Made by a program: the position numbers and the translations under genes | Assembly (NCBI RefSeq): GCF_030824335.1 | Contig: NZ_JAVBXX010000003.1 | Span: 234,472-298,471 of the forward strand | Length of the DNA stretch: 64,000 nt | DNA from: Azonexus sp. | GTDB lineage: Bacteria > Pseudomonadota > Gammaproteobacteria > Burkholderiales > Rhodocyclaceae | Direction: 5' to 3' | Notes under the pieces: generated by a model | Told to the model about the DNA's origin: nothing | Databases searched by the model: none | What the model saw: the letters and a program-made list of their open reading frames with translations, nothing else | Part shown: positions 9,293 to 30,658 of the stretch, in pieces | Numbering within the stretch: the stretch's first letter is position 1 | How the letters are laid out: each line of letters begins with the position of its first letter

Positions 9293-9652
9293 ATGAAGCG
9301 TATCGACATCGACGAGGCCATACGCCAGCACAACAAGTGGCGTCGCCAGTTTCTCAACGCATTTGCCGGTGGCAACTATGCCGACATGCCGCTTTCCGAA
9401 CACCGCTGCTGTACGCTGGCCAATTCATTGGTCAAATCGCTGGCCGAGCACCAGTCATCCCGGCAGACGCCAGATAATCTATCCGGTTTGATTTCGGTCC
9501 ACAACCGATTCCACGATCTGGCCAACGAAATTGTCGACCTCAGTCAGAATGGCTTGGGGGATTCAGCGGATTTGCTTTTGCCTGAACTGAACGAAGGTGC
9601 GCATCAATTGGTCGCCGCCCTCGATCAATTGCGTGAACAACTGGCTGAATAA
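9293..9652 (+). CDS. Stand-alone CZB (chemoreceptor zinc-binding) domain protein
   Basis: A 119-aa protein that is essentially a CZB domain. It has an N-terminal H-x-x-W helix (RQHNKW), a central Cys after DMPLSEH (EHRCC), and a C-terminal HNRFH. These correspond to the 3His/1Cys zinc site that CZB domains use to sense zinc or hypochlorous acid at the end of chemoreceptors and diguanylate cyclases. Here no receptor or cyclase is attached, so it may act in trans. GGGG lies about 11 nt upstream of ATG. It ends before the minus-strand operon at 9692. Confidence 0.65.
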   Translation: MKRIDIDEAIRQHNKWRRQFLNAFAGGNYADMPLSEHRCCTLANSLVKSLAEHQSSRQTPDNLSGLISVHNRFHDLANEIVDLSQNGLGDSADLLLPELNEGAHQLVAALDQLREQLAE

Positions 9653-9691
9653 TTCAGCTTGTTCAAGCTTGTCCGCAAGCAGATGCCGCGA

Positions 9692-9970
9692 CTAAAGCAG
9701 CGCGGCACGCCAGAGGGCCAAGCCAACCCAGAGTGCCAAAAGCAGAACAAAGCAGAGCAGGCCGGATAATCCCGGCCCGACTTTGTTGCGCAGCAAGCAC
9801 GCGACAAGACGACGGGGGGCTCGGGTAATCAGGGCAAAAAGCTGATAAATAGGATTTTTATCACGCTGACTGCCGGCCAGGACATACATAAGCGCCAACC
9901 CGAGCAGCGCCAGCCCGAGCATTTCGATCACAGCGCGCAAGGCGCTGATCAGAAACAGCAGCACAAACAC
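9692..9970 (-). CDS. Small membrane protein, last gene of the transport/sensing operon
   Basis: A 92-aa, very Leu/Ala-rich protein with two predicted helices (about residues 2-32 and 66-90) joined by a basic loop containing RAPRRLVACLLRNK. The start is uncertain: a GTG at 9970 is used, but a CTG a few codons upstream has a better ribosome site (AGAGGG). It follows the DUF4212 gene by 36 nt in the same operon. Unknown function. Confidence 0.5.
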   Translation of the reverse strand: MFVLLFLISALRAVIEMLGLALLGLALMYVLAGSQRDKNPIYQLFALITRAPRRLVACLLRNKVGPGLSGLLCFVLLLALWVGLALWRAALL

Positions 9971-10006
9971 CCGCGCCAGACCGCTTCTTTCCTGCAGCGC
10001 CCTCTT

Positions 10007-10255
10007 CTATTCCGCATCGCCAGCATATTCGGCATCCAGTTGCCGCATGCGACGACTGTAATAGACGATGATGCCCAGATAACAGAGCAAGATGCCTTGG
10101 GCGGCAAAATAGAAGCCAAAAGGAAAACCGAAAAAGCTGTAGGCATTCAGTTCCCGGGCGAACCAACTGACACAGAAAGTCAGAACGACCCAGATGACCA
10201 GCAACCAGGCAGTCAGATGTCGTGTCTTGCGCCAGTAGGGAGAAACCTGATTCAT
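10007..10255 (-). CDS. DUF4212 small subunit of a sodium:solute symporter
   Basis: An 82-aa two-helix protein (about residues 15-33 and 45-66) with the family features WFARELN and FPFGFYFAAQG. DUF4212 proteins are the usual small partners of SSS transporters of the VC_2705 type. It overlaps the symporter stop by four bases (ATGA), which implies matched expression. Here it is downstream of the symporter gene; in many genomes the order is reversed. Role presumably assembly or gating of the symporter (inference). Confidence 0.88.
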   Translation of the reverse strand: MNQVSPYWRKTRHLTAWLLVIWVVLTFCVSWFARELNAYSFFGFPFGFYFAAQGILLCYLGIIVYYSRRMRQLDAEYAGDAE

Positions 10256-12294
10256 ATGCCCTCCCCGCGACGATCCGGCTGTCGGATGCGGGCCAGAAAA
10301 TCTGCCGCCTGAGGCGATGGACGGGTAAATAGGCTGACCAGCACATTGGTCATGAAGCCAGCCACAATACCGAACACCCCCGCCGAGGTCGATTGCAGAT
10401 GCAACCAGGGTTTCAGGGGAGCGCCTTCAAGACCGAGCCAGGCAAAGCCGCCGAACTCAAGACGCAGGATGTAGTAAAGCGTCAACAACAGGCCAACCAA
10501 CATGCCGGCAATGGCCCCGGCCCGCGTTGCCCGCGCCCAGAAAATCCCGAGCACCAATGCCGGGAAGAAAGCCGAACCGGCGATCGAGAATGCCCAGGCC
10601 ACCATCGACAAAATCGTGCCGGGTTTCTGGGCGGCAACGGTTGCAGCAAAAACCGCGACCACCAGCAACAGCGATTTGGAAATCACCAGACGCAGTTGGG
10701 TCGATGCACCCGGACGGAAAATCCGGTAATAAACGTCATGCGACAATGCGCTGGTAATGGTCAGCAACAGGCCATCGGCGGTTGACAGCGCGGCCGCCAA
10801 AGCGCCCGCGGCGACCAGTCCGGAAACCACATAAGGCATGCCGGCAATTTCCGGTGTCGCCAGCACGATAACGTCCGGGTTAAGCGACAGCTCAGCCAAC
10901 TGCAAGATGCCGTCGCCATTGATATCCTCAATACCGACCAGGCCCACCTTGGTCCACGCTGCAACCCAGCCGGGCAATTTGGCAATCGGGATGCCGGCCA
11001 GATTGGACAGCACTTCGAACTTGGCGAATACCGCATAGGCCGGTGCCGTGATGTACAGGATGACAATGAATAACAGCGACCAGACCACGGACTCTCGGGC
11101 CTGTGACACTGATGGTGTCGTGTAATAACGCATCAGGACATGCGGTAGCGCAGCGGTACCAATCGTCAGGCAGAAAATCAGCCCCAGGAAATTGAAGCGC
11201 AAGGCATTTTGTTCTTCAACTGTTTTGGCCGGGAAGGGTTCGGCGTGATGAATTGGCGGTTTACTGCGGTCGACCGCAGTAAACATCTCATTTTCCCAGC
11301 GCAATCTGGCCTGTTCCGGATCATGCGGCAGTTCGCGGCGCTGACGTTCCAGTGCGACGATTTCGCGCATCTGTACGTCGCTGGATTTCAGTTCGTTGAT
11401 CTGGATCGACAAGCGCTCGCGTTCCAGGATCAGCGACTGTGGCAGCTGCATGATTTTCTGTGCATAAAGGTCGGCGCGCTCCTGATAGAGTTCGCGCACC
11501 TCCAGCTCCTTGGCTGAGTCGAACAACTGATGTTCGAGCGTGGTCACCTTTTCCAGCACTTGCCCGTAAACCAGTTGCGGAATCGGCACCCCGGTGACGT
11601 TGTAGGACAGGATGGCGACCGGCGTTACGTAAGCCACGATCAGGATCAGGTATTGCGCCACCTGCGTCCACGTCACGGCCCGCATGCCCCCCAGGAAGGA
11701 ACAGACCAGGATGCCGGCCAGACCGACGAAGACCCCGACCTCGAATTGCAAACTGACGAAGCGGCTGGTAATGACGCCGACACCGTAAATCTGCGCAACG
11801 ACATAAACAAAGGACGCGAGAATGGCCGCAGCGACAGCGACCAGCCGGATGAAATTGCCGCCGTAACGGGCCACCAGGAAATCCGGAATGGTGTATTGCC
11901 CGAAGCGCCGCAGATAGGGGGCCAGCAGCAAGGCGACCAGCACGAAACCGCCGGTCCAGCCGATCACGTAAGCCAGCCCCTGGAAGCCTTGCAGATAGAG
12001 CGTGCCGGCCAGCCCCATGAAGGACGCCGCACTCATCCAGTCGGCACCGGTCGCCATCCCGTTGAACAGGGCCGGTACCCGGCGCCCCGCCACGTAGTAC
12101 TCCGAGACATCCGTGGTTCGACTGAAAACGCCGATGGTGGCGTACATCGATACCGTGAAAACGAGGAAAGCATAGCCGACCCAACGCGGCGGCATCCCGT
12201 GACGCTCAAGGAGTGCCAGCGTCAGGACGAACAGCACGAAGACCGCCGTGTAATACAGGTAGTAGCGCTGCAGCCGGGTCAACGAATTAAGCAT
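10252..12294 (-). CDS. Sodium:solute symporter, VC_2705/ActP-like
   Basis: A 680-aa SSS-family transporter, probably for acetate or another short carboxylate, judged by family and by acs upstream. N-terminal helices include FNGMATGADWMSAASFMG, the usual Na-site region. Between the helical halves lies a long hydrophilic insert with a coiled coil (about residues 250-330: repeated Glu/Arg/Leu heptads). Residues 457-468 (DINGDGILQLAE) match an EF-hand calcium loop at positions 1, 3, 5, 6, 8 and 12. A perfect 26-nt palindrome falls in the coding sequence at residues 338-346 (FTAVDRSK). Starts 10 nt after the DnaQ-like gene. Confidence 0.88.
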   Translation of the reverse strand: MLNSLTRLQRYYLYYTAVFVLFVLTLALLERHGMPPRWVGYAFLVFTVSMYATIGVFSRTTDVSEYYVAGRRVPALFNGMATGADWMSAASFMGLAGTLYLQGFQGLAYVIGWTGGFVLVALLLAPYLRRFGQYTIPDFLVARYGGNFIRLVAVAAAILASFVYVVAQIYGVGVITSRFVSLQFEVGVFVGLAGILVCSFLGGMRAVTWTQVAQYLILIVAYVTPVAILSYNVTGVPIPQLVYGQVLEKVTTLEHQLFDSAKELEVRELYQERADLYAQKIMQLPQSLILERERLSIQINELKSSDVQMREIVALERQRRELPHDPEQARLRWENEMFTAVDRSKPPIHHAEPFPAKTVEEQNALRFNFLGLIFCLTIGTAALPHVLMRYYTTPSVSQARESVVWSLLFIVILYITAPAYAVFAKFEVLSNLAGIPIAKLPGWVAAWTKVGLVGIEDINGDGILQLAELSLNPDVIVLATPEIAGMPYVVSGLVAAGALAAALSTADGLLLTITSALSHDVYYRIFRPGASTQLRLVISKSLLLVVAVFAATVAAQKPGTILSMVAWAFSIAGSAFFPALVLGIFWARATRAGAIAGMLVGLLLTLYYILRLEFGGFAWLGLEGAPLKPWLHLQSTSAGVFGIVAGFMTNVLVSLFTRPSPQAADFLARIRQPDRRGEGI
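11259..11284. repeat. 26-nt perfect palindrome inside the symporter gene
   Basis: Perfect inverted repeat, with half-site GTTTACTGCGGTC followed by its reverse complement, centred between 11271 and 11272. It is the longest member of the TGCGGTCGAC family in the window. It stays in frame and encodes part of the hydrophilic loop after the coiled coil of the symporter. Confidence 0.9.
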
Positions 12295-12304
12295 GCCGTC
12301 TCGT

Positions 12305-12967
12305 TTAATGGGTCCGACGCAGGTGGCTGCTGGCTTTCGATTCCTCGATCAGTTCGTCCACCGTATAAACCCCTTTGGCATGTGCGCGCACCACCAGCAT
12401 TTGCAGCAGGCGGGCCAGCAACAAATTGTTTTCACAGGGGCTACGCCGCCCATCGCCAAGATCAAGGCCAAAAGCAAGCAGCCAGTCATCCAGCGGCATG
12501 GGTTTGTGGTGTACCTCGCTGAACATCGCCGGCAGTAACCAAGTCAAGTCGACCCAGCGCGGCTGGAAATTGATGCCCAGTCGCTTCTTCAACAATTGCT
12601 CCAGGAAGGCGCTGACGAAAACGACATGGTAGGAAACCAGCGGCGATTTACCGATGAATTGCAAAAATGCCGCCAATTGCCGGTCGACCGCAATATCGTC
12701 AGTTGCCGCCGACAAGTCGATGTAGATACTCTGCGCCGGCGAAGCAACGCCTTGATGCATCACCGTGGCAGCAATCGCGGTCACCTGATCGGTTTCTGCA
12801 TTGGCGCCTGTAGTCGCAATATCGACGATGACGTAGCGCGTCAGATGATGCGATGACTCAAGGCCAGCCAGTTCGAGTCCCTGCCAGGCAACAACAGCAG
12901 CCTTGACGTCGGCCGGCAGATTTTCGTTCGGTCCTTCCCCGAACAGGAATTTCTTGATGCCGAACAT
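12305..12967 (-). CDS. DnaQ-like protein without catalytic residues
   Basis: A 220-aa protein with the layout of a DEDDh 3'-5' exonuclease but a ruined active site. Motif I reads VDIATTG (D49-I50-A51) instead of D-x-E. Motif II is SYHVVFVSAFL with Val118 where Asp is needed. Motif III lacks both His and Asp (RSPCENNLL). Compare the intact domain in the gene at 16039. It is therefore probably a binding or regulatory protein (inference). Start ATG is 2 nt after the CBS-DUF294 stop; the symporter follows after 10 nt. Confidence 0.75.
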   Translation of the reverse strand: MFGIKKFLFGEGPNENLPADVKAAVVAWQGLELAGLESSHHLTRYVIVDIATTGANAETDQVTAIAATVMHQGVASPAQSIYIDLSAATDDIAVDRQLAAFLQFIGKSPLVSYHVVFVSAFLEQLLKKRLGINFQPRWVDLTWLLPAMFSEVHHKPMPLDDWLLAFGLDLGDGRRSPCENNLLLARLLQMLVVRAHAKGVYTVDELIEESKASSHLRRTH

Positions 12968-12969
12968 GA

Positions 12970-14913
12970 TCAGTGATTCACCTGGTAATCGAGCTTGAGA
13001 CGCGACTGTATCTTGCGCGCCTGACGGAAGGACTCCTTGAGAATCCGGCGATCAAGCTCATTGAGTTTTTCCGGATCAATCAGGTTGTCGCCCTGGCGTC
13101 CCGGCTCACCTTCCAGATACTGGTGCTGCAGGCGCAGCAACTGGATGAAGTTCAGACCATCGAGAATGGCGTTGATTTCATCGCCCTTGATGTTCATTTT
13201 CTGTGCGGACATTCTCAGCCGCTGGCCGGTATTGGTGCCGTGCACGCCGACGGCCAGCGCGTAAATGCGCGCCACATCGACAAAAATGCGCGAACCATAT
13301 TTCTTCAGATCGATCTTGCCCGGATGATCCGGCTCGAGATCGGTCAAGAAATCGCGAATCTTGCCCAGCGGAGGACTGACATCGAGGGCATTACGCGCCA
13401 TGGCCTGCAGGAAAATCGGCGTTGCGGCTGCCTGCGCCAATAAATGCCGGCGCATGGCATCGGCCAGTTCGCTCTTGCCAAAAAGCGGCCGGAAGTCGAA
13501 AAAGATGGTTGCATTGAGCAAGGCAGTCGGCTCCGGTGTGCGAATCCACTTGCTGAACTGTGACCGCCACTCGTCCAGCGTCATGCACCACTCGGGATTG
13601 CTGGCCATGATATTGCCCTTGCACAACGGGAAACCGACCTTGTCGAGATCCTTGTTGGTATCGAGCGCAAAAGCCAGGAAACGCTGCTTGAGGGCATCCT
13701 GCGATTCCCCTTCGGGCACCACGAAAACAATGCCGTTATCCTGATCGGTACTGAAAGTCTGCTCATCGCGGCCTTCCGAACCGAAGGCCAGCCAAGCCCA
13801 ATCGATACCGGAAAAATCGTGCTTTTCCAGGTTGAGCTGGATGACGCGCCGGGTCAACGCGTCGTTCAGGGCAGAAATGAACTGCGTCAACTGCTCAGCG
13901 CCTATCCCTTGCGCCAGCATGTTGAACGACAACTGGCGCACATCGGCGGCAGAATGTTGCAGCGCTTCGACATCCGGTGCGGCCTCGATGGCCTGGCGAA
14001 TCTGGCGCAAGCCAACGCGCTGCAAGGCAAACAGGTCGCGCTCGGAAACCACGCCGGTCAGGCAGCCGGCGTGATCGGTCACCAGCACATGGCGAATGCC
14101 GTGCGTTGCCATTGCCAACATCGCGTCGTACGCCGTGGCATGCTCGCTGAGCATGAAAGGCGAAGACGACATGGCACTGCTGATCGGTGAAGTAAGTTCC
14201 AGACCCGCCAGCACGACGCGATCAAGCAAATCGCTGCGGGTAAAAATACCGACCGGTTTCTTCTCCGGATCGGCCACCACCATCGAACCGATACCCTTCA
14301 GCGACATGGTTTCCAGCACGCTGCGCAACGGCGTTTCCGGCAAGACGGAAATCGGCTCACGCGTCCCGATACCAACTAGCGGCGAATTCAGCGTCTGCTG
14401 TTCGCTCGCCTTCTGGGCAAACTGGGCCTGCAACTGGCGCCGTGACTGGTCGAGCAGGCTGGCAATGTACTGGGTACAGAACAGGTTGAACTCCGGGCTG
14501 CTCGACATCAGCAGGAGAAAATCCTCGGCCGGCAGGTGATAGCAGAACGTATCTTCGACTGCCGTATAGATGTTGGTGGAAGGACGCCCCGCCGTCACCG
14601 CGCCAATCGGGAAACTCTCGCCCGCCCCCAGGCTGAGAATGGAATATTCGGTCACCGTCACTTCACCCGCCTGGCGGGCCTGCACCTTGCCGGACTCGAT
14701 CAGGTAAAAGAACCGGACATTGCCGGAATCCGGCCCGACGATCAGGCTCCCGGCCGGATAAAAGGCAATATGCGCCTTTTCGCCGAAGCGCTGCAGCGCT
14801 TCGGCTGACATCTTGTTGAACGGCGCATGCTTGCGCAGGAAGGTCATCGTGTTGCCTGCAGCGCGATGCAAACCTTCCTCGCGCAACATGGCTTCAACTT
14901 GGTTTACATCCAT
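12970..14913 (-). CDS. cNMP-binding / CBS-pair / DUF294 nucleotidyltransferase-like protein
   Basis: A 647-aa multidomain protein. Order: cyclic-nucleotide-binding fold (about 30-145, with YPAGSLIVG and FYLIESGKVQ), a CBS pair (about 175-300), a DUF294 nucleotidyltransferase-like domain with GSEGRDEQ (378-385) and TDQDNGIV, and a C-terminal substrate-binding domain. The G-S-x-G-R-x-E-Q...DxD pattern is the GlnD-like nucleotidyltransferase signature, so uridylylation or adenylylation of a partner is plausible. Start at 14913 has AGAG about 9 nt upstream; an upstream TTG was rejected. Known neighbourhoods place this family beside SSS transporters. Confidence 0.88.
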   Translation of the reverse strand: MDVNQVEAMLREEGLHRAAGNTMTFLRKHAPFNKMSAEALQRFGEKAHIAFYPAGSLIVGPDSGNVRFFYLIESGKVQARQAGEVTVTEYSILSLGAGESFPIGAVTAGRPSTNIYTAVEDTFCYHLPAEDFLLLMSSSPEFNLFCTQYIASLLDQSRRQLQAQFAQKASEQQTLNSPLVGIGTREPISVLPETPLRSVLETMSLKGIGSMVVADPEKKPVGIFTRSDLLDRVVLAGLELTSPISSAMSSSPFMLSEHATAYDAMLAMATHGIRHVLVTDHAGCLTGVVSERDLFALQRVGLRQIRQAIEAAPDVEALQHSAADVRQLSFNMLAQGIGAEQLTQFISALNDALTRRVIQLNLEKHDFSGIDWAWLAFGSEGRDEQTFSTDQDNGIVFVVPEGESQDALKQRFLAFALDTNKDLDKVGFPLCKGNIMASNPEWCMTLDEWRSQFSKWIRTPEPTALLNATIFFDFRPLFGKSELADAMRRHLLAQAAATPIFLQAMARNALDVSPPLGKIRDFLTDLEPDHPGKIDLKKYGSRIFVDVARIYALAVGVHGTNTGQRLRMSAQKMNIKGDEINAILDGLNFIQLLRLQHQYLEGEPGRQGDNLIDPEKLNELDRRILKESFRQARKIQSRLKLDYQVNH

Positions 14914-14975
14914 TTCAGTCGCTCTCCCGATATTTTCTTGTTTTGAATGCACGGCAAATCCTTCCTGATTTACTG

Positions 14976-16037
14976 TCAAAGTGAGTAGTTTAACTTTAGT
15001 CGTTGTTGCAGATGGCGCGCCTGACGCAGTGCTTCACGCAGGATCACGCGGTCGATTTCATGGAGCGAAGAAGGGTGAAAACCCGCTTGCTCCATCCCGC
15101 TCTGGCTTGCTTGATGCTCCAGGCGCAAGCGCAGAATCTGTGACAGCGCCGCCTGGGCCACGCGGATTTCGTAATCCTTCATGCACCCCAAAGGTCCGGC
15201 ATCGCGCAAGCGGTCGAAGGTATTGACCGCCGACACGCCGCTGGCCAGCGCCAGGATGCGGGCGGTGTCGACGAACAGTCGGCTGCCCAGTTTTTTCAAA
15301 TCCACGGTTTCTGCGTCGTCGACCGCAACATCGCCGAGAAAACCCAGCGGCGGATGCACCGCCAGGGCATTGACCGCCATCAAATGCAGAAATGCCGGGG
15401 CATCGGCGGTCAAGCGAGAAACCAGTTCGCGCAAGGAAACACCGAGTTCAAAATGACCGTACAAGGGGCGAAAATCGAAGAAGATCGTCGCATTGAGCAA
15501 AGCTTCCGGTTCTGGACAACGGACCCAGTCAATGAACTTGCCACGCCATTCATCCAGCGACAAACACCAAGCGGGATTGCCCGCCATGATCTCGCCGGGA
15601 CAACGGGTGAAGCCGCAGGCCGCAAGGTGCTCGTTGGCTTCCCGGGCAAACGGCAGGAACAATTCACGCAATGCTTGGGCCTCGCTGCTGCTGGTAGCGA
15701 CGAAAACCAGTCCGTTATCCTGATCGGTGACCAGCGTCTGTTCATCGCGCCCTTCCGAGCCCATCGCCAACCAGCACCATTCGGTCGGCGGCAATCGATG
15801 GCGACGGGCGACCAGTGCCAGCACACTTGCGGTCAACTGGTCGTTGAGGCGAGAAATCAGGCGTGTCGCGGCTTCGCCCGACAAACCGCTGACTGGAATC
15901 CGGCGCTGGAAATCGTGCAAGCGCCTAGCCAGTTCAGGTGCCAGTGCCAGATCGCCAAGCGCTGCGAGCTCGCCGGACAATGCTGCCAGTTCTATACACG
16001 GCAGCCCCGGCATTTCCGGCAAAGACACGCACGCCAT
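14976..16037 (-). CDS. DUF294 nucleotidyltransferase-like protein lacking CBS domains
   Basis: A 353-aa paralogue of the C-terminal half of the gene at 12970. It keeps GSEGRDEQTLVTDQDNG (starting at residue 93) and the same downstream pattern (NPAWCLSLDEWR, ATIFFDFRPLYG, DLKKLGSRLFVD), but has no cNMP or CBS sensor. Starting ATG is one base after the stop of the exonuclease fusion. The shared motifs suggest the same type of transfer reaction on a different partner, or regulation through hetero-association (inference). Confidence 0.82.
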   Translation of the reverse strand: MACVSLPEMPGLPCIELAALSGELAALGDLALAPELARRLHDFQRRIPVSGLSGEAATRLISRLNDQLTASVLALVARRHRLPPTEWCWLAMGSEGRDEQTLVTDQDNGLVFVATSSSEAQALRELFLPFAREANEHLAACGFTRCPGEIMAGNPAWCLSLDEWRGKFIDWVRCPEPEALLNATIFFDFRPLYGHFELGVSLRELVSRLTADAPAFLHLMAVNALAVHPPLGFLGDVAVDDAETVDLKKLGSRLFVDTARILALASGVSAVNTFDRLRDAGPLGCMKDYEIRVAQAALSQILRLRLEHQASQSGMEQAGFHPSSLHEIDRVILREALRQARHLQQRLKLNYSL

Positions 16038-16038
16038 G

Positions 16039-18195
16039 TCAGTACTTGATCCGGGCAAAATAGGTCTTCTCAGCCGCTTCCAGCGCCTGACGCACGGTGA
16101 CAATGCCCATTTGTTCCAGCAGCGGGACCAATTTCAGAAAGACCTCGCCGGTTGCGACGGCGTCTTCGAGGGCATTGTGTCGCGTATCGATGGAAATGCC
16201 GAGGCGCTCAAGAATGACATCGAGCTTGTGCGATTCCTGGTTGGGATGAACCACCGCCGACAGCAGCAAGGTATCGAGCACCGGCTGGGTGAAACGCAGA
16301 CCGGTACGATCCTCCTTCAACTGCAGGAAACGCATGTCGAAAGCCGCATTGTGGGCGATCAACACGGTTTCTTCACAGAAAGCATGGAAGGCCGGCAACA
16401 CGATATCAATGTTCGGCTGGCCGCGCACCATGTCCTCGGTGATGCCGTGAATGGGGATGGACTCCGGCTTCAATGGGCGTTCCGGATCGACGATCTGATT
16501 GAAGGTTTCCTGCTTGAGCAGGCGGTTATTGACAATGCGCGCCGCCCCGATCTGGATGATCTCATCGCCTTTCGATGGCTCCAGCCCGGTCGTTTCGGTA
16601 TCGAACACGGTGTAAGTCAGGTCGGACAGCTTGCGGTCGAGGTCTATCGTTTGATCCTCGAATTTGAACAAGTCGAAATCGTAATACTCCGGTCGGCCGG
16701 TCGCCCGGCGCTCATCCAGCAACTCGGTCTCCGGCGCCGCTACCGGCAGCACGAAGCGGAAGAATGCCCGGTGTGCCGCCTTGTCGCGCTGATACCAGAT
16801 TTCGCCGCCGTGCCGGTCGATCACGTCACGCAGGGACAAGGAGGAACTCTCGCCCAGTGCCTGCATGGTCTCCATTTCCCACGTGTAGAAAGTCTCGGAG
16901 GAAATCGCCTGACCGACCCAAATCAAGTCAAGATAGGCCAATTTTCCCTCGTGACTGGTGCGGAAACGCAGATCGCGAATCTGGTAATGATCGAGCAAAC
17001 GTTCGGCCAGGAAAGTCAGCGCGAAAACCAGCGAGAAACTGTCGGCCTTGATCCACAAGCTTTCATCCACATCCTCGATCTTGCTCGGCAGCTTCAGCTT
17101 GTCGTCGATCCGGCGTTGCGCAGCACTGATCACGTCGATTGCCAGCACATCTTCCAGCGGCCAGCGCGTCTTCATCGAATCGGAAAACTCGCCCATCGTG
17201 TCGTCCAGGCGCTGGCTCATGCGGGCAGCTTCGTCATCGACTACCTTGACGAAACGTTCGCGCAACTCGGGGTCCATTTCCGGGTAATCGATCAGGTTGG
17301 CCACTGCTGCGCGAATACTGCCCAGTGCCGCCCGGCTGCCTTCGGTCAGCGAATGCAGCGCCTGATCGCGCCGCGCCTCTTCTTCCAGTGTGCGGGTGAT
17401 GTTCTCAACCGTCAGCACATACCCGGTCATTTTCGCTTCACCTTCTTCGTGCACGGCAGACAGCACCGGCACCATCTGGACGCGCAACAACTGGCCACCG
17501 CGCGTCGTCGTGACGAAGTTGGCCAATGCCGATTTGCCGTTACTCAGGCGCTGGCGAATGATTTCCTGCGAATGCTCAACCTGGTTCTTTTCCAGGATGG
17601 AGAAAATCGACCGTCCCAGACCAATCAGCGCGCCGCCCGCCACCGTCGTCGGACCTTGCGACAGCGCCTTGAATTGCAACCTGGCGCGATTGTTGTAGAG
17701 CAGGATACGGCCGTCGAGATTGCACACGACCACCGCTTGCGCCAACTCGGACATCAGCGCGGCCAAGCGGTTTTTCTCCTCTTCGACCGAGGCATTGGCT
17801 TCAGCAATCTGCGAATCGACATCATCCATCAAGGCATCGCGTTGCGCTGCCAGATCGTTGGCCACCCGGGCCAGTTGCTGGACTTCCGGCGGGCCATCGA
17901 GTTTGACCCGGAAATTGCGATTGGCGCCCAGCATCAAGCGCAGTTGTTCGGCCATTCCAAGCAAACCTTCGACATACTGTTTGAACAGCTTGTGCAGCAC
18001 CCCGACACCGATACCAAAACCGAACAGGGTCATCATCGTGCCAATCGGCAAACGCGAGACCAGCAGATCGATCAGTATCTGACGCTCGCTTTCCCCCATG
18101 TCCACCCAGACCAGGAAGGAAGTCACGACGAATGGCCCGGTCATCAACAGACCGAGAACGACAACAGCAATAGCAAAGCGTACTTTGGCCTTCAT
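16039..18195 (-). CDS. Membrane pseudokinase fused to a DnaQ-type exonuclease
   Basis: A 718-aa protein. Two N-terminal helices (about 7-30 and 48-66) are followed by a HAMP-like and coiled linker, a PAS domain (about 150-275), and a histidine-kinase-like core. In the core the H-box is degenerate: TEGSRAALGSIR with Glu285 where His belongs. The ATPase region has no recognisable N or G boxes. The C-terminus is an intact DEDDh exonuclease: FDTETTG (D532, E534), AHNAAFDMRFL (D620) and RHNALEDA (H673, D678). GGAG lies 8 nt before ATG. So it looks like a membrane sensor that controls a nuclease rather than a phosphoryl donor (inference). Confidence 0.85.
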   Translation of the reverse strand: MKAKVRFAIAVVVLGLLMTGPFVVTSFLVWVDMGESERQILIDLLVSRLPIGTMMTLFGFGIGVGVLHKLFKQYVEGLLGMAEQLRLMLGANRNFRVKLDGPPEVQQLARVANDLAAQRDALMDDVDSQIAEANASVEEEKNRLAALMSELAQAVVVCNLDGRILLYNNRARLQFKALSQGPTTVAGGALIGLGRSIFSILEKNQVEHSQEIIRQRLSNGKSALANFVTTTRGGQLLRVQMVPVLSAVHEEGEAKMTGYVLTVENITRTLEEEARRDQALHSLTEGSRAALGSIRAAVANLIDYPEMDPELRERFVKVVDDEAARMSQRLDDTMGEFSDSMKTRWPLEDVLAIDVISAAQRRIDDKLKLPSKIEDVDESLWIKADSFSLVFALTFLAERLLDHYQIRDLRFRTSHEGKLAYLDLIWVGQAISSETFYTWEMETMQALGESSSLSLRDVIDRHGGEIWYQRDKAAHRAFFRFVLPVAAPETELLDERRATGRPEYYDFDLFKFEDQTIDLDRKLSDLTYTVFDTETTGLEPSKGDEIIQIGAARIVNNRLLKQETFNQIVDPERPLKPESIPIHGITEDMVRGQPNIDIVLPAFHAFCEETVLIAHNAAFDMRFLQLKEDRTGLRFTQPVLDTLLLSAVVHPNQESHKLDVILERLGISIDTRHNALEDAVATGEVFLKLVPLLEQMGIVTVRQALEAAEKTYFARIKY

Positions 18196-18236
18196 GGCTG
18201 GTACTCCACAGCAAGCGTTTTTACGCCGCGCACGGC

Positions 18237-18249
18237 GTCGACCGCAGAA
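18237..18249 (+). repeat. GTCGACCGCA repeat in the RR / pseudokinase spacer
   Basis: The 93-bp gap between the response regulator and the pseudokinase-exonuclease gene contains GTCGACCGCAGAA, a copy of the dispersed family. The same extension (CAGAA) is found in the perfect palindrome at 62594. Confidence 0.55.
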
Positions 18250-18288
18250 TCGAAAGAAACGGACCCGGGACTGGAAACGAAACGGGAC

Positions 18289-18660
18289 TCAGGCCATGCC
18301 AAGCAGGGACTTGACCTGAATCACCAGATCCTTGGTCGAGAATGGCTTGGTCACATAGGCATCGGCCCCGATGGCCAGCCCCTTGGCGACTTCCGTGTCG
18401 CGCCCCTTGGCGGTCAACATGACGATACGCAAATCCGCCTTGGCCGGATCGGCACGCAAGGCTTCGCAGACTTCGAAACCGGATTTTTTCGGCATCATGA
18501 CATCAAGCAGGATCAGATCCGGTGCGAAGGAAGCCGCTTTGGCCAACGCTTCTTCACCATCGACTGCCACTGCGACATCAAAACCTTCCTTCTTCATGAG
18601 GAACTCAAGCGAGATGACGATATTCGGCTCGTCATCGGCAATCAGAATTTTTTTGGACAT
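18289..18660 (-). CDS. Receiver-only response regulator
   Basis: A 123-aa CheY-like receiver with no output domain. It has the acidic pair DDE at about residues 9-11, the phosphorylation site in LILLDVMMPKKSGF (Asp about 53), Thr in MLTAKG and the conserved Lys in VTKPFS. It lies 18 nt behind the SSS-sensor kinase gene, its obvious phosphodonor, and ahead of the pseudokinase-exonuclease. With no DNA-binding domain, its target is probably a protein, perhaps one encoded in the same operon (inference). Confidence 0.92.
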   Translation of the reverse strand: MSKKILIADDEPNIVISLEFLMKKEGFDVAVAVDGEEALAKAASFAPDLILLDVMMPKKSGFEVCEALRADPAKADLRIVMLTAKGRDTEVAKGLAIGADAYVTKPFSTKDLVIQVKSLLGMA

Positions 18661-18678
18661 TTGTCCAGTCTCCCATTG

Positions 18679-21390
18679 TTATGCTTCCGGCACCGGCAAG
18701 GGCACCGTGAAAATGAAGGTAGCACCGGCACGCGGCGTACTTTCGACCCAAAGCTTACCACCAAAATACTCGACGATTTGCCGGCTGATCGGCAGGCCAA
18801 GACCCGTTCCCTGGGGCTTGTTTGTCAGCGTGTTTCCGCCCTGGCGGAACTTCTCGAAAATGACCGAGCACTCCTCCGCACTCAAGCCAGGACCGTTGTC
18901 GGCGACCGCCACCCGGACCTCGTGCGCACCGGCAGTCACGCTGACCCGGACCACACCATCGCCCCCCGGTACAAACTTGACAGCATTGGACAACAGATTG
19001 ACCACGACCTGCGTCAGGCGGTCGCGGTCAGCCAGCACACACGGCAAATCGGCAGCAATCTCGTCGTCGAGACGCACCGCCTTTTCCCGGAAAAGCTGGC
19101 CCAGTACGACCATGGCATCGCGTACCACTTCCCCGATATCGACTTCGGCCGTCGTCCACTCGGCTCGCCCGGACTCCAGCTTGGCCATGTCGAGAATCTG
19201 GTTGATCAAACGCGTCAGGCGCTCGGTCTCACTGACGATAATGGCCATGAAGCGCGTGCGGTCGACCAGTTCCATCTGGGGGTCTTCGTGCAACATTTCG
19301 GACAGGGCGCGAATCGACGTTAGCGGGGTGCGCAATTCATGCGTCACCGTCGAGATGAAATCGTCCTTCATGCGATCCAGTTCGCGCAGACGCTCATTGG
19401 CTTCGCGCAACTCGCTTGTCGCCACCTCCAGCGCCAGTTGCTTGGCCTCCAGTTCGCGGCTATAGGCGCGAACCTGGGTTGCCTCATCAAGAATATCCAG
19501 CACCTCCTCCAAGCCCAGGTTCTCCTCACGCGTCACGCTGGAGACCATAACCCGCGCACTGGCCGAGCCGATGGCACCAGCCAGTTCGGCTTCGGCGAAA
19601 TGCACGAAGGCCGCGTCGGGCGGCAAAACCTGCCAGTGTTCAACGCCGCGCATCTGCGCATAGGAAACCAGTTGCTGCTGAGCCCGCAAGGGCCCGAGAA
19701 AGCGCTCGAGCAAATCGACCAGATCCTTGACTGAGGCATCGCCGCGCCACAAGCGGGTATCGGGGCCGCGCTGGGCATGCCGGAAAACATCGACAAAACG
19801 CTCGGCCTGCCCGGCTTCAACAACCCCCGGCACGCTGTTCAACGAAACCACCACGTAGGCACCGAGATTGGCCAGCAGACTCCACCACAGGCAATGTGAA
19901 ATCTCGTCCAGTCCGCTCAAACCGAATAAAGCCTGCGCCTTGAGCCAGCCCAGACCGAACAGGCCGTGCTCGACGAAGCCATTGGCAATCCAGCCCGATT
20001 TGGCAAACGACGGCAGCAGCAAGGTATAAAGCCAGACGGCGAAACCGGCGAGCAAACCGGCCAGCGCACCGGCCCGCGTCCCCTGCTTCCAGTACATGCC
20101 GCCAAACAGCGCCGGGGCGAACTGGGCCACAGCGGCAAAGGAAATCAGCCCAATGCCAACCAGCGCATAAGCTTCGCCGGCCGCACGGAAATAGATGTAA
20201 CCGAGCAACAGGATCAGGATGATGGCGACCCGCCGAATGCCGAGCAGCAAGCCGGAAAGATTGCCCCTTTTTTCCATTTTCAGCCAGGTCGACCGCAACA
20301 AAATCGGCATCACCAGATCGTTGCAAATCATTGTCGACAACGCGATGGTTTCGACGACGACCATACCGGTAGCGGCCGACAGACCACCAATGAAAACCAG
20401 TAGCGCCAACGACTCGGCACCTTGGGAAAGCGGCAGGGTGAGGACGAAAGTATCGGGATTGAAATTCTGCCCGCTGAAATGCATCAAACCACCCAAAGCC
20501 ACCGGCAGCACGAAGATGTTGATCAGCAGCAGGTAGAGCGGAAACAGCCAGACCGCCCGCTTGAGATGCGACTCATCGACATTTTCCACCACCATGACCT
20601 GAAACTGGCGCGGCAGGAAAACAATGGCCAAACCGGAAAGCAGGACCATCGCCGTCCATGTCCCGGCCCGTGCGGAATCCAGCTCCAGCAAGCCGACCAG
20701 TTCCGGATGCGTTGCCGCCCGCTGAAAAAGATCGGAAAATCCGCCATACATGCCATAGGTGACGAACAGACCAACCGCCACGAAAGCGAACAGCTTGACC
20801 ACTGACTCGAAGGCAACAGCAGCCACCATGCCTTCGTGGCGCTCCGTGGCATCGAGATGGCGGGTCCCGAACAGGATGGTGAACAAGGCCAGCACGGCAG
20901 CCACCAACAAGGTCGAATCGATACCCCACAACTGGATGGCATGCCCCGGCCGGTCAAACAGCACATCCAGACTGGCGGCCACCGCCTTGAGCTGCAAGGC
21001 GATATACGGCACGATGCCGATCACTGCAATCACCGTCACCAGGCCAGCCAGCAACTGGCTCTTGCCATAACGCGAGGCGATGAAGTCGGCGATGGAGGTG
21101 ATGCGCTGCGCCTTGGCGATACGGATCATCTTGATGATGACCCCGACGCACATCAGCATCAGCGTCGGACCAAGGTAGATGGTCAGGAAAGACAGCCCGC
21201 CGGAAGTGGCGCGGCCGACACTGCCGAAAAACGTCCAGGAGGTGCAGTAGACCGCAAGTGACAGGGCATAAACGTTGGCTGAGATGATCGACTTGCCCGC
21301 ATCCGCCCGCGCATCGCCAAAACGGGCAACGGCAAAGAGGAGCCCGACATAGGCGGCAGACAAAAGCGCGATGAACCAGCCGGAAAGCAT
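18679..21390 (-). CDS. SSS-transporter-type sensor histidine kinase (CbrA/MxtR-like)
   Basis: A 903-aa protein. Residues ~1-500 are a sodium:solute symporter fold (about 13 helices; RITSIADFIASRYGKS and GGLSAATGMVVVE are typical). A STAC-like linker (~510-620) and a coiled coil lead to HisKA with THELRTPLTSIRA (His684), and then HATPase with the N-box NLLSNAVKF, VADNGPGL, FEKFRQGG and GTGLGL. This resembles CbrA/CrbS/MxtR, which control use of amino acids or acetate. Unlike MxtR/CrbS the receiver is separate. Its ATG directly abuts the preceding stop. Probably senses the same substrate class as the downstream symporter (inference). Confidence 0.9.
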   Translation of the reverse strand: MLSGWFIALLSAAYVGLLFAVARFGDARADAGKSIISANVYALSLAVYCTSWTFFGSVGRATSGGLSFLTIYLGPTLMLMCVGVIIKMIRIAKAQRITSIADFIASRYGKSQLLAGLVTVIAVIGIVPYIALQLKAVAASLDVLFDRPGHAIQLWGIDSTLLVAAVLALFTILFGTRHLDATERHEGMVAAVAFESVVKLFAFVAVGLFVTYGMYGGFSDLFQRAATHPELVGLLELDSARAGTWTAMVLLSGLAIVFLPRQFQVMVVENVDESHLKRAVWLFPLYLLLINIFVLPVALGGLMHFSGQNFNPDTFVLTLPLSQGAESLALLVFIGGLSAATGMVVVETIALSTMICNDLVMPILLRSTWLKMEKRGNLSGLLLGIRRVAIILILLLGYIYFRAAGEAYALVGIGLISFAAVAQFAPALFGGMYWKQGTRAGALAGLLAGFAVWLYTLLLPSFAKSGWIANGFVEHGLFGLGWLKAQALFGLSGLDEISHCLWWSLLANLGAYVVVSLNSVPGVVEAGQAERFVDVFRHAQRGPDTRLWRGDASVKDLVDLLERFLGPLRAQQQLVSYAQMRGVEHWQVLPPDAAFVHFAEAELAGAIGSASARVMVSSVTREENLGLEEVLDILDEATQVRAYSRELEAKQLALEVATSELREANERLRELDRMKDDFISTVTHELRTPLTSIRALSEMLHEDPQMELVDRTRFMAIIVSETERLTRLINQILDMAKLESGRAEWTTAEVDIGEVVRDAMVVLGQLFREKAVRLDDEIAADLPCVLADRDRLTQVVVNLLSNAVKFVPGGDGVVRVSVTAGAHEVRVAVADNGPGLSAEECSVIFEKFRQGGNTLTNKPQGTGLGLPISRQIVEYFGGKLWVESTPRAGATFIFTVPLPVPEA

Positions 21391-21585
21391 CTAGGCATTC
21401 CGCCGTTCAGCGATCCAGGCGGCCAACGCAATCAAGCCGGCCCAAACGCCGAAAAGGTAAAACACAATCATCGGGATACCCGCCAGGCTGCCTTTCGGCA
21501 AACCGAGCAACGGGTAAGTCAGCAGAGGAATACCGCACAAGCCGATCGCCGCCAGGCGCTGCCGGGTTGGACTACCGCGTTTCAC
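21391..21585 (-). CDS. Small two-TM protein heading the operon
   Basis: A 64-aa protein with hydrophobic stretches at about residues 11-27 and 35-58 and a basic C-terminus (ERRNA). It begins with GTG, preceded by AGGGGG about 6 nt upstream. The layout (G-x-P in the middle, aromatic second helix) recalls DUF3311-type partners of SSS transporters, but the match is weak. Its stop abuts the ATG of the SSS kinase, so it may be a partner of that membrane domain (inference). Confidence 0.55.
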   Translation of the reverse strand: MKRGSPTRQRLAAIGLCGIPLLTYPLLGLPKGSLAGIPMIVFYLFGVWAGLIALAAWIAERRNA

Positions 21586-21598
21586 CAGATACCCCCTG

Positions 21599-21640
21599 TA
21601 AAAATAAAAACGGCTGACACGCCAAGCGTGCCAGCCGTTA
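21599..21640 (-). terminator. Intrinsic terminator between acs and the downstream operon
   Basis: On the minus strand a strong hairpin (ACGGCTGGCACGC / GCGTGTCAGCCGT, one mismatch) is followed by TTTTTATTTTT. It sits right after acs and only about 14 nt before the GTG of the next gene, leaving little room for a separate promoter there. Confidence 0.88.
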
Positions 21641-21664
21641 TGCCATGCAGTCTGTTAGACCGCC

Positions 21665-23626
21665 TTAGCCCTTGAGTTGCTCAAGGATCGCCGGGTTTTC
21701 CAGCGTCGAGGTGTCTTGCGTCAGTTCCTCGCCCTTGGCCAGGCCACGCAGCAGACGACGCATGATCTTGCCCGAACGGGTCTTCGGCAGGTTGTCACCG
21801 AAGCGGATGTCCTTCGGCTTGGCGATCGGACCGATCTCCTTGCCCACCCAGTCGGACAGTTCCTTGATCATCTTCTTGGCATCGTCACCGGTCGGGCGCT
21901 GGCCCTTCAGCACGACGAAGGCGACGATGGCTTCACCGGTCAGATCATCCGGACGGCCAACCACGGCAGCCTCGGCAACCAGCGGATTGGCAACCAGAGC
22001 GGATTCGATTTCCATCGTACCCATGCGGTGACCGGAAACGTTCAGCACGTCATCGATACGGCCGGTAATGGTGAAGTAACCGGTGTCCTTGTCACGGATC
22101 GCGCCGTCGCCTGCCAGGTAGTACTTGCCCTGGAAGTCGGCCGGGTAGTAGGACTTGACGTAGCGTTCGTCGTCATTCCAGATCGTGCGGATCATCGACG
22201 GCCACGGCTTCTTGCACACCAGGATACCGCCTTGACCCCACGGCAGATCGGCACCGGTCTCATCGACCACGGCGAACTGGATGCCCGGGAACGGCAGCGT
22301 GCAGGAACCCGGCACCAGCGGGGTTGCGCCCGGCAGCGGGGTGATCATGTGACCACCGGTTTCGGTCTGCCAGAAGGTATCGACGATCGGGCAACGACCG
22401 CCGCCGACATTGTTGTGGTACCACTCCCAGGCCGCCGGATTGATCGGCTCACCGACCGAACCGAGGAGGCGCAGCGACGACAGGTCGAAGCTCTTCGGAT
22501 GGATTTCCGGCTTGGTATCGCATGCCTTGATCAGCGAACGGATGGCGGTCGGCGCGGTGTAGAAAATGCTGACCTTGTGATCCTGGATCATCTTCCAGAA
22601 ACGGCCGGCATCCGGGTAGGTCGGCACGCCTTCGAAGACGACTTCGGTGGCACCGCAAGCCAATGGGCCGTAAGCGATATAGGTGTGACCGGTGACCCAG
22701 CCGATGTCAGCCGTACACCAGAAGACATCGGTCGGCTTGATGTCGAAAGTCCACTGCATGGTCATGATGGCGTGCAGCAGATAGCCGCCGGTAGAGTGCT
22801 GAACACCCTTCGGCTTGCCGGTGGAACCCGAGGTGTAGAGCAGGAACAGCGGATGTTCTGCGCCAACCCATTCCGGCTCGCAGGTTTCCGGCTGATTGGC
22901 CAGACCGTCGTGCAACCATTCGTCACGGCCGGCAACCATGTTGCACTCAACGCCGGTGCGCTTGAAGACGACAACACCCTTCAGGGATTCGCAACCGCCC
23001 ATGGCCAGGGCTTCGTCGGCAATGGTCTTCAGCGGCAAGGCCTTGCCGCCGCGGAACTGGCCGTCAGAGGTAATCAGCAACGTGGCGGCAGCATCGTTGA
23101 TACGGTCGCGCAGTGCCTGAGCGGAGAAGCCGCCGAACACGATGGAGTGCGGCGCGCCGATACGGGCGCAAGCCTGCATGGCCACTACGCCTTCGATGGT
23201 CATCGGCATGTAAATGACGACGCGATCACCCTTCTTGACACCCTTGGCCTTGAGCAAATTGGCCATCTTGCAGACCTTGACCAGCAATTCCTTGTAGGTC
23301 ACCTTGGTCACGTCGCCGTTGTCGGCTTCGAAGATGATGGCGACCTTGTCGCCCAGACCGGCTTCGACCTGACGGTCGAGGCAGTTGTAGGAAACATTCA
23401 GCTTGCCGTCGGCAAACCACTTGAAAAACGGAGCGTTGGACTCGTCCAGCACCTGGGTGAACGGTTCCTTCCAGGTGATCAGTTCGCGGGCCCGCTTGGC
23501 CCAAAAACCTTCGTAGTCGGCTTCTGCTTCCGCGCACAGCGCCTTGTAGGCGTCCATCCCCGAAACCGCCGCGTTCTTGACCATTTCGTCAGACGGATAA
23601 TAAAACTGCACGGACTCATTCGACAT
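21665..23626 (-). CDS. acs: Acetyl-CoA synthetase
   Basis: Activates acetate to acetyl-CoA via acetyl-AMP. The 653-aa protein has the N-terminal ACAS leader, the P-loop [14 protein letters not shown], and the C-terminal hinge and catalytic lysine in [13 protein letters not shown] (Lys620, equivalent to the Lys that is acetylated by Pat in Salmonella). Start at 23626 has GAGGAG about 6 nt upstream. The next genes on the strand encode an acetate-type sensor kinase and symporter, which fits a shared acetate regulon. Divergent from the UPF0114 gene. Confidence 0.96.
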
Positions 23627-23873
23627 ATTCTTCTCCTCTGCGGTACTTCGCATTTATGTTGAAACAACCGATCGGATCTCGGGGAAAACCCCGGGATGTA
23701 GTAAAGCCGTACGCACTGGAATTGACACACTCCCCAGTCCAGCGCCGAACCGGCATTACACGTCGATAATCTTACAAACGCCTTACGAAATCACGCTGCG
23801 GCGCAGCATTTCCGCTTATCGGGAACCGTCCTGCAGTCGCGTGATAAACTCCGGCCTTCCATAACAACCCACC
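23627..23873. promoter_or_regulatory. Divergent intergenic region upstream of acs
   Basis: A 247-bp gap that must hold the acs promoter and the promoter for the UPF0114-fumarase pair. I see no convincing -35/-10, sigma-54 or CRP-like site by eye and no repeat of the TGCGGTCGAC type. Confidence 0.4.
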
Positions 23874-24416
23874 ATGACGATGAATTCCCCTGTCAAGTCA
23901 CTTGAAACTTTCATCTTCGCCAGCCGCTGGATTCAGGCTCCGCTCTACGTCGGCCTGATTGTTGCCCAAGTCGTGTATTGCTGGCTGTTCATGATCGAAC
24001 TGAGCCATCTGGTTACCGGTGCCTTCAGCTCGCAGCACATGAGTGAGGCTGATGTGATGCTGGTGGTTCTTGGCCTGATCGACGTGGTGATGATCGCCAA
24101 CCTGCTGGTCATGGTCATCGTCGGCGGCTACGAAACCTTTGTCTCCCGCCTCGATCTCGATGATCACCCGGACCAGCCGGAATGGCTGTCGCACGTCAAT
24201 GCCGGCGTCCTCAAGATCAAGCTATCGACTGCCATCATCGGCATTTCGTCGATCCACCTGCTGAAAAGCTTCATCAATGCGGCCAATCTGTCAGAGCACA
24301 CATTGATGTGGCAGGTGATCATTCACGTCGTATTCCTTTTCTCTGCCCTGGCCATGGCGCTTGTCGACAAGACCATGACCCAGACTCTCGCCCTGCAACA
24401 TCAAAAAAACCATTGA
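23874..24416 (+). CDS. UPF0114 (YqhA-like) membrane protein
   Basis: A 180-aa integral membrane protein with about four helices and the family signature [16 protein letters not shown] at the N-terminus, followed by [11 protein letters not shown] in the cytoplasmic loop and [18 protein letters not shown]. Function of the family is not known. It is 13 nt upstream of the fumarase start and likely cotranscribed with it. Confidence 0.9.
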
Positions 24417-24429
24417 TTCGGAGTTGTGC

Positions 24430-30552: not shown

Positions 30553-30658
30553 CAACTTTCTCTATTCATATTGCTTTTATCATTGAATCAGATTATCACC
30601 TTTCGCAGCATCACCCCCGAACGATGATGCACGGCTCACCGGCAAGGCTTGCCACAGA

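Follow-up and report, generated by a model that had tools for sequence, protein, structure and literature searches.

Comparison of related loci revealed that the conserved element in a ten-gene cluster of Azonexus sp. is the pairing of a DUF294 nucleotidyltransferase with a DnaQ-type exonuclease, not of each block with its mirror image. The cluster occupies positions 9692-21585 of the window, the whole 64,000-nucleotide stretch analysed. We tentatively read it as an operon for the sensing and uptake of acetate or related carboxylates, organized around a DUF294 writer and a DEDDh eraser that might tag proteins reversibly. The near-constant adjacency of the two enzymes in related bacteria points to a division of labour, in which a nucleotide tag would be attached by one enzyme and taken off again by its partner.

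All ten minus-strand open reading frames (ORFs) were confirmed (Table 1), and the ORF list and gap count agree with the spacing of -4 to 93 nt given by an earlier, sequence-only reading, with the short nucleotidyltransferase NT_s starting at the ATG at 16037. The alternative TTG start at 16103 in the ORF list would make NT_s overlap the upstream gene. Pfam and NCBIfam matches recover the kinase domains of the symporter-kinase, the receiver, the kinase-like protein with RNase_T, the DUF294 proteins and the symporter pair. Both symporter subunits exceed the curated cut-offs of TIGR03648 and TIGR03647, as expected of the VC_2705 type. The small ORF at the downstream end has no match in Pfam or NCBIfam, and similar ORFs are present in some relatives; the one at the upstream end has no Pfam match, and relatives carry similar small ORFs 5' of the symporter-kinase.

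Table 1. Features of the ten-gene interval and its upstream neighbour
Feature	Position	Strand	Basis or remark
acs (acetyl-CoA synthetase), 662 aa	21665..23653	-	Upstream neighbour; judged by comparison and by features of the family
Terminator-like hairpin between acs and the ten-gene interval	21609..21639	-	Stem of 14 pairs with a T tail
Small membrane-like ORF, 64 aa	21391..21585	-	End abuts symporter-kinase start
Symporter-histidine kinase, 903 aa	18679..21390	-	HisKA, HATPase_c (Pfam); kinase motifs intact
Receiver-only response regulator, 123 aa	18289..18660	-	Response_reg 5.8e-28
HKexo: helices at the N terminus, a PAS-like and pseudo-histidine-kinase part, and a DEDDh exonuclease of the active type at the C terminus	16039..18195	-	RNase_T 2e-35, motifs, model
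HKexo exonuclease domain	about 16042-16608	-	RNase_T residues 530-686
NT_s: short DUF294 + DUF294_C nucleotidyltransferase	14976..16037	-	Family match, motif intact, GlnE-like model
NT_L: borderline cNMP, two CBS, DUF294, DUF294_C	12970..14979	-	Family match; motif intact
exoX: DnaQ-fold protein, catalytic residues lost	12305..12967	-	Motif comparison; no Pfam match
VC_2705-family sodium/solute symporter	10252..12294	-	TIGR03648 754 bits, cut-off 320.75
DUF4212 / symporter small subunit	10007..10255	-	TIGR03647 91.4 bits, cut-off 26.05
Small membrane-like ORF, 92 aa, no family	9692..9970	-	ORF list

The families had also been said to occur near acs, and a neighbourhood with acs indeed recurs in related loci, where acs homologues stand at the head of the cluster. 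In the window, a strong terminator-like hairpin, absent from the sequence-only reading, separates acs from the ten genes; the 71 nt folded have a minimum free energy of -27.5 kcal/mol (z -4.22). The scan by itself says little, as it returned 25 terminator-like sites in the region against 18.2 expected. The same holds for a sigma-70 scan of 9400-24000, which gave 0 sites compared to 4.2 expected by chance.

Samples of 249 Pseudomonadota and 118 Bacteroidota genomes gave strong DUF294 matches in 96 and 39 genomes, respectively. From 138 Pseudomonadota matches, 100 regions were examined, a non-random choice in which those with the best E values predominate, with several regions from some genomes and the two of the window excluded. 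A DnaQ-type exonuclease is present in 92 of these 100 regions, from 34 of 37 families, and 79 pairs lie on the same strand within 500 bp, including three single-protein fusions. Distances were taken between stop-to-stop ORFs, which were annotated with HMMs built from the window proteins and their relatives. Exonuclease, CBS and DUF294 reside within a single ORF in three regions, and seven of the eight unpaired regions belong to genomes that encode HKexo or a further pair at a different site. By comparison, the exonuclease was found in none of 40 control regions around GlnE, one locus per genome from genomes that also have DUF294. The same 100 regions contain a symporter in 54 cases and acs in only 22. 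Among the Bacteroidota, 14 of the 20 regions examined (of 45 matches listed) are paired, and in 12 of these 14 neither symporter nor acs was found nearby. Among free-standing exonucleases, Glu replaces the motif-II Asp in 33 of 91, and one more shows a further loss; separately, an exonuclease-like ORF in one region (L290) fits the motifs poorly. Our literature search, whose coverage excluded most subscription journals and bioRxiv, found no description of a DUF294-exonuclease pair or of a pseudokinase-exonuclease.

The catalytic motif GSEGRDEQT...TDQDN is intact in both DUF294 proteins of the window, and the G-S and DxD residues are kept in 195 of 197 nucleotidyltransferase relatives. Of the two relatives without the motif acids, one adjoins an exonuclease that also lacks an active-site Asp; the region around the second contains no exonuclease. 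Re-comparison of Foldseek matches showed that the predicted model of NT_s most closely resembles both halves of GlnE (Z 24.6 over 315 residues, rmsd 3.8; Z 23.9 over 302 residues, rmsd 3.2) and DrrA (Z 22.8), the next row falling to Z 11.7. The model thus points to a GlnE-like fold, a likeness that by itself is no demonstration of function. A sequence search of solved structures with NT_s returned nothing at E 1. GlnE and DrrA are protein AMPylases, and SidM (DrrA) is reported to be encoded beside its eraser SidD (PMC12409994). In NT_L, the cNMP match is borderline, at 27.1 bits against a cut-off of 27.5. Short copies of the NT_s type form one Rhodocyclales clade in a tree of 109 of the 197 nucleotidyltransferase rows, and tandem DUF294 genes occur in 8 of 97 comparison loci (L034-L130; DUF294 lies within 65 of these stretches, some of which are short). 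NT_s is a domain-stripped, fast-evolving DUF294 copy that, together with the catalytically dead exonuclease exoX, doubles the unit in this genus. Two of the loci (L046 and L101) seem to derive from a single contig, which means that one genome is counted twice, and in another (L051) NT_L is divided between two ORFs.

The symporter-kinase carries HELRTP and GTGLG within intact HisKA and HATPase_c domains, as in a histidine kinase; its symporter part has no SSF match in Pfam and was judged from sequence and relatives. The N-terminal half of HKexo possesses neither the H-box histidine nor the glycine-rich ATP box. The H-box motif searched for occurs in 0 of 96 HKexo relatives, and the phospho-acceptor column, Glu in the window, is Glu or Asp in 69 and His in one of the 87 relatives in which it is filled, in keeping with the earlier description of a pseudokinase. 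A GxGLG string appears in 5 of the 96, and at the single position checked (L050) it belongs to the PAS-like loop. In the exonuclease domain, the D-E-D-H-D metal-site residues are present in the window and in all 117 other fused domains. Judged by these residues, HKexo joins an active-type exonuclease to a membrane PAS/kinase-like module that lacks a phospho-histidine. A lone receiver precedes HKexo in 70 of 99 loci and none does in 29; no DUF294 was seen within the fetched stretch in 28 of the 99.

As the sequence-only reading held, exoX is a dead DnaQ protein: its metal site reads D-A-V-R-N in place of the D-E-D-H-D of active relatives, and all six members share D-A/V-V-R-N. It was found only in the window and five close loci of the 97, and might perhaps serve as a scaffold. 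In the exonuclease tree (91 of 218 rows), exoX groups with free-standing exonucleases and not with the fused domain (13 rows, SH-aLRT 99, with a long-branch warning), a placement that does not favour its having arisen by local duplication of the exonuclease domain of HKexo. Free decay is not favoured either, given conserved C-terminal residues and a dN/dS of about 0.18-0.34, a rough estimate because dS is high.

The sequence-only reading had centred on a mirror-image design, in which each block occurs twice, once as an active sensor and once as an inactive transporter part, and the pairing itself is functional. The gene order is literally palindromic, and of the exonuclease pair one member is dead. 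Palindromes, however, make up 6 of 90 random orders, and both doublings occur together in only 4 of 97 related loci. The contrast of active and inactive copies holds for the exonucleases only, as both DUF294 proteins retain GSEGR...DQDN, and the two exonucleases fall into separate clades (with the same long-branch warning). We set the design aside as the main idea because of the order count, the gene content of relatives and the two trees, and consider it very improbable. Of the signalling chain proposed with it, the succession of symporter-kinase, receiver and pseudokinase-exonuclease fits the gene order, whereas the paired mirror design finds no support.

We propose instead that DUF294 is a GlnE-like enzyme whose CBS and cNMP-like domains would control the transfer of an NMP (probably AMP) onto a hydroxyl group in a side chain of its protein target. 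Hydrolysis of the NMP-protein phosphodiester by the DEDDh enzyme would release the NMP. In this lineage, the active eraser would be the one fused to the membrane PAS/pseudo-histidine-kinase: the symporter-kinase might sense a carboxylate and phosphorylate the lone receiver, which could dock on the pseudo-DHp domain of HKexo and switch the eraser. The symporter pair or acs are possible targets. The eraser role gains plausibility from a DEDD oligoribonuclease that is reported to hydrolyse p-nitrophenyl-TMP (PMC6390093) and from RNase Z, a nuclease described as a deAMPylase (PMC12663964). Against the proposal stand the Glu in place of the motif-II Asp in many free-standing exonucleases, the limited presence of symporter and acs in the 100 regions, and the HKexo loci that lack an upstream receiver or, within the fetched stretch, DUF294. 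In addition, deletion of the DUF294 gene in P. fluorescens is reported to have a negligible effect on growth on acetate (PMC5715377), and the exonuclease may act on nucleic acid instead. The full picture is possible but doubtful: a widespread GlnE-like writer would be undone by a DnaQ-fold eraser, which the symporter-kinase and lone receiver would gate through a pseudokinase with an acidic residue in place of its phospho-acceptor, and carboxylate outside the cell would thereby determine the tagging of a protein for transport or activation.

Three other readings start from the same pair of enzymes. If the pair edited RNA 3' ends, DUF294 would add nucleotides and the DEDDh exonuclease trim them, thereby controlling carbon-use RNA. 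Nucleotidyltransferases acting on RNA ends are well known, DEDDh enzymes are as a rule 3'-5' exonucleases, and the best sequence matches of the fused HKexo domain are PolC and Pol III epsilon. However, protein AMPylases are the closest structural matches of the DUF294 model, well ahead of the next row; the rows shown for NT_s include neither a poly(A) nor a CCA polymerase, an absence that is no evidence. We regard RNA editing as unlikely, and as about equally unlikely a scheme in which the nucleotidyltransferase modifies its partner exonuclease and turns the nuclease on or off. Gene adjacency and the three fusions suit the latter, as does the reported adenylylation of the HepT RNase by MntA (PMC7641770), but the exonuclease fold differs from HEPN, and the catalytically dead exoX has no activity that could be turned off. 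More improbable is a circuit in which DUF294 produces an oligonucleotide or a small nucleotide messenger and the DEDDh enzyme degrades it, by analogy with the clearance of pGpG by oligoribonuclease. Input through CBS/cNMP domains and a nuclease bound to the membrane would be in keeping with such a messenger circuit, yet the top structural rows are GlnE/DrrA-like and not a messenger synthase, which argues weakly against it.

In the papers found, the role of DUF294 is predicted only, and with a near-constant partner this family of unknown function becomes a two-enzyme system that can be tested. Were the exonuclease to remove NMP from protein, signalling would be added to the roles of proofreading-type nucleases, and a new class of eraser to protein AMPylation. 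Should our reading of the HKexo fusion be true, it would provide a case of a receiver that acts on an enzyme of nuclease fold by way of a dead kinase.

CrbR is a LuxR-type DNA-binding response regulator, and no such transcription factor is encoded among the ten genes, whose regulator is receiver-only with 123 residues. The cluster resembles CrbS/R (MxtR/ErdR) of Vibrio and Pseudomonas in its symporter-type histidine kinase and in acs, an ActP-type symporter, a small membrane partner and a cNMP-CBS-nucleotidyltransferase, reported as co-regulated there (PMC5715377, PMC5436829). In P. fluorescens, acs, actP, the small partner and the cNMP-CBS-nucleotidyltransferase are described as all under CrbS/R (PMC5715377), and parts of this kind are also described for the Pseudomonas PA3232-PA3235 cluster (PMC9765439). 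Unlike CrbS/R, the kinase here is followed by a receiver without an output domain and then by the pseudokinase-exonuclease. DUF294 shares with GlnE the nucleotidyltransferase fold with a helical C-terminal domain and a DxD-type catalytic motif, but has one nucleotidyltransferase domain compared to two in GlnE, in addition to CBS/cNMP input and a DnaQ-fold partner. As in SidM (DrrA)/SidD, a GlnE-like AMPylase gene adjoins an eraser gene, the eraser role being proposed here; SidD, however, is described as having a phosphatase fold, and SidM/SidD as acting on a host GTPase (PMC12409994), whereas the present pair occurs either by itself or among bacterial genes for uptake and sensing. SelO/RNase Z likewise has a nuclease as eraser of protein AMPylation, which is a proposal only in our case; RNase Z is reported to adopt a metallo-beta-lactamase fold with a pseudokinase as writer, and the parts of that source consulted claim no gene pairing (PMC12663964). 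MntA/HepT differs in its minimal nucleotidyltransferase, HEPN RNase and toxin-antitoxin logic. Nevertheless, this MNT-HEPN system is similarly described as a two-gene unit of a nucleotidyltransferase and a nuclease (PMC7641770).

Downstream of acs, ten minus-strand ORFs occupy positions 9692-21585 with intergenic gaps of -4 to 93 nt, and every gene named by the sequence-only reading was found. A hairpin with a stem of 14 pairs and a T tract (21639-21609; MFE -27.5 kcal/mol, z -4.22) separates acs from this set. As the hairpin is strong and lies ~23 nt from the first start codon, the ten genes are probably expressed either by read-through from acs or from an unseen promoter, and expression may depend on read-through of this hairpin. 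The window also encodes a CheB-CheR-PAS protein and a PAS-kinase-receiver protein overlapping by 4 nt (26126-30555), adjoined by a fumarase gene (24424-25965).

The ten ORFs in order of transcription
Order	Coordinates	Strand	Product
1		-	Small membrane-like ORF
2		-	Symporter-type protein fused to intact histidine kinase
3		-	Receiver-only regulator
4	16039-18195	-	HKexo: kinase-like protein, C-terminal RNase_T (DnaQ-type) exonuclease
5	14976-16037	-	NT_s: short DUF294 protein
6	12970-14979	-	NT_L: CBS-CBS-DUF294, cNMP match borderline
7	12305-12967	-	exoX: DnaQ-like, without Pfam match
8		-	VC_2705-family symporter
9		-	DUF4212 small subunit of VC_2705-family symporter
10		-	Small membrane-like ORF

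The proposed palindromic order (SSS-DnaQ-DUF294 / DUF294-DnaQ-SSS) is present, but 6 of the 90 possible orders of such a set are palindromes. The comparison covered 97 loci: 17 from the same taxonomic order and the best 80 found on scanning bacterial and archaeal genomes. Eight of them have DUF294 genes in tandem (L034, L035, L051, L054, L055, L067, L093, L115), five have exoX (L034, L051, L052, L093, L115) and only four have both doublings; a mirror design is thus most improbable. What recurs, in varying order, is acs, a small ORF, the symporter-kinase, the receiver, HKexo, one DUF294 gene (with CBS in most), DUF4212 and the symporter. DUF294 lies within the fetched stretch at 65 of the 97 loci, and 18 of 200 genomes of the order have a clear HKexo, full or partial. 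In the NTase tree the short DUF294 copies fall together, on long branches, in a single clade made up of ten Rhodocyclales rows (SH-aLRT 99), and NT_s and NT_L are 66% and 90% identical to their nearest tree rows, both from one Dechloromonas locus. The suggested division into active and inactive forms does not fit this pair, because both copies keep the GSEGR...DQDN motif.

By contrast, the label of dead DnaQ suits exoX, whose metal-site positions read D-A/V-V-R-N in all six members, compared to D-E-D-H-D in active relatives; judged by these residues, exoX is catalytically dead. Free decay is disfavoured by a dN/dS of ~0.18 to 0.34 against five relatives, a rough value owing to high dS. In the tree, which carries a long-branch warning, exoX clusters with free-standing exonucleases and not with HKexo. 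At a guess, it might be a scaffold.

DUF294 was matched at E 1e-15 or better in 96 of 249 Pseudomonadota genomes (138 matches summed). Up to 14 kb around 100 of these matches, mostly from the top of the E-value list, revealed a DnaQ-type exonuclease in 92 regions, all above 50 bits and covering 34 of 37 families. It lies within 500 bp on the same strand in 79 regions, at 500-3000 bp in 11 and farther in two. Where both genes share a strand and lie no more than 700 bp apart, the exonuclease follows the nucleotidyltransferase (NTase) in 81 cases and precedes it in two, whereas in the window's relatives HKexo precedes DUF294. The 79 include three single-ORF fusions (L207:5548-7896, L218:6337-8448, L229:6403-8538) comprising RNase_T, two CBS, DUF294 and DUF294_C, all above Pfam cut-offs. 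HKexo is present in the genomes of five of the eight exonuclease-less regions (G020, G402, G301, G286, G232), and a further NTase-exonuclease pair in those of two (G312, G295); neither was seen in the genome of the eighth (G346). No exonuclease occurs at GlnE control loci from 40 genomes also carrying DUF294 (548 kb). Within the order, DUF294 is present in 16 of 18 HKexo genomes versus 18 of 40 without HKexo (Fisher p 0.0017), the two exceptions being 85% and 87% complete. The symporter (54 of 100 regions; acs, 22) is a looser companion than the exonuclease, which occurs without it in 42. DUF294 is also found in 39 of 118 Bacteroidota genomes, where an exonuclease adjoins in 14 of 20 loci fetched from 45 matches; in 12 of these 14, no symporter or acs was found. 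Three loci (L199, L200, L206; genomes G308, G267, G312) carry two pairs back to back and divergent, an independent doubling of the unit.

The HKexo architecture extends over beta-, alpha- and gammaproteobacteria, Desulfuromonadales, Bacteroidota, Acidobacteriota and one Caldilineaceae record. Its predicted pseudokinase nature is upheld: the H-box motif is absent from all 96 aligned sequences, and the phospho-acceptor column holds Glu/Asp in 69 of 87 filled rows and His in one. A GxGLG string occurs in five of the 96; the one placement checked (L050) is a PAS-like loop. The window's fused exonuclease domain and all 117 others retain D-E-D-H-D. The HKexo model, of middling quality (mean pLDDT 76.8, pTM 0.37), matched WalK-type kinases and PolC/Pol III epsilon exonucleases in Foldseek. 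A lone same-strand receiver lies upstream at 70 of 99 scorable loci (none at 29), 18 of the 70 being without a symporter-kinase in the fetched stretch. In two Bacteroidota loci (L114, L124), with neither receiver nor symporter found nearby, a CBS-DUF294 gene adjoins a shorter HKexo-like protein without the pseudo-H-box stretch.

The NT_s model is good (mean pLDDT 87.5). A second comparison run on Foldseek's own matches gave as nearest structures both halves of GlnE from E. coli (Z 24.6 and 23.9) and the AMPylase DrrA (22.8), over ~300 residues, followed by a DrrA piece (11.7), a HEPN domain (10.0) and aminoglycoside nucleotidyltransferases (from 9.9). GlnE and DrrA move AMP onto or off proteins; NT_s shares the fold, which does not imply the function. 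In the available part of PMC3710099, DUF294_C is classed with GlnD/GlnE C-terminal domains.

Our best, still tentative, reading is that DUF294 would write a nucleotide tag on a protein and the exonuclease would erase it. The writer may be controlled through its own CBS/cNMP domains, and in HKexo lineages the symporter-kinase and receiver would control the eraser; the acidic residue replacing the phospho-His might, at a guess, fix the pseudo-DHp in a phosphorylated-like state. Only two of 197 NTases lack the DxD acids: L203:5812-8531, whose adjoining exonuclease has lost the last Asp and has Glu in motif II, and L302, whose region holds no exonuclease. The joint loss in L203, a single case, is no more than suggestive. 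Conversely, dead exoX adjoins intact NT_L, yet the same operon has an active-type HKexo. Counting against writer and eraser, the motif-II Asp is Glu in 33 of 91 free-standing exonuclease rows, and 28 of 99 HKexo cases have no DUF294 in the stretch. In some free-standing exonucleases, among them L152:7910-8632 and L138, motif II reads HYRxIE, not HNAxFD. Of the other readings, RNA editing, with the NTase acting on RNA, appears unlikely; modification of the partner exonuclease itself is no more probable, and a nucleotide messenger is distinctly improbable.

The individual parts, the acetate context and reversible AMPylation as a kind are already known, whereas the accessible portions of open PMC papers yielded no description of the pseudo-histidine-kinase exonuclease, of the DUF294-exonuclease unit with its near-constant pairing, or of natural fusions of the two. 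According to the available text of PMC5715377, the CrbS/R regulon includes acs, actP, a small partner and pflu5625, which is predicted to act as a regulator by nucleotidylation and whose deletion had a negligible effect on growth on acetate. As far as the accessible sections go, writer and eraser have precedents in RNase Z, a nuclease that removes AMP from protein (PMC12663964), as proposed here for the DEDDh exonuclease, and in SidM/SidD (PMC12409994), where the gene of a GlnE-like writer adjoins that of its eraser, as proposed for the DUF294-exonuclease pair.
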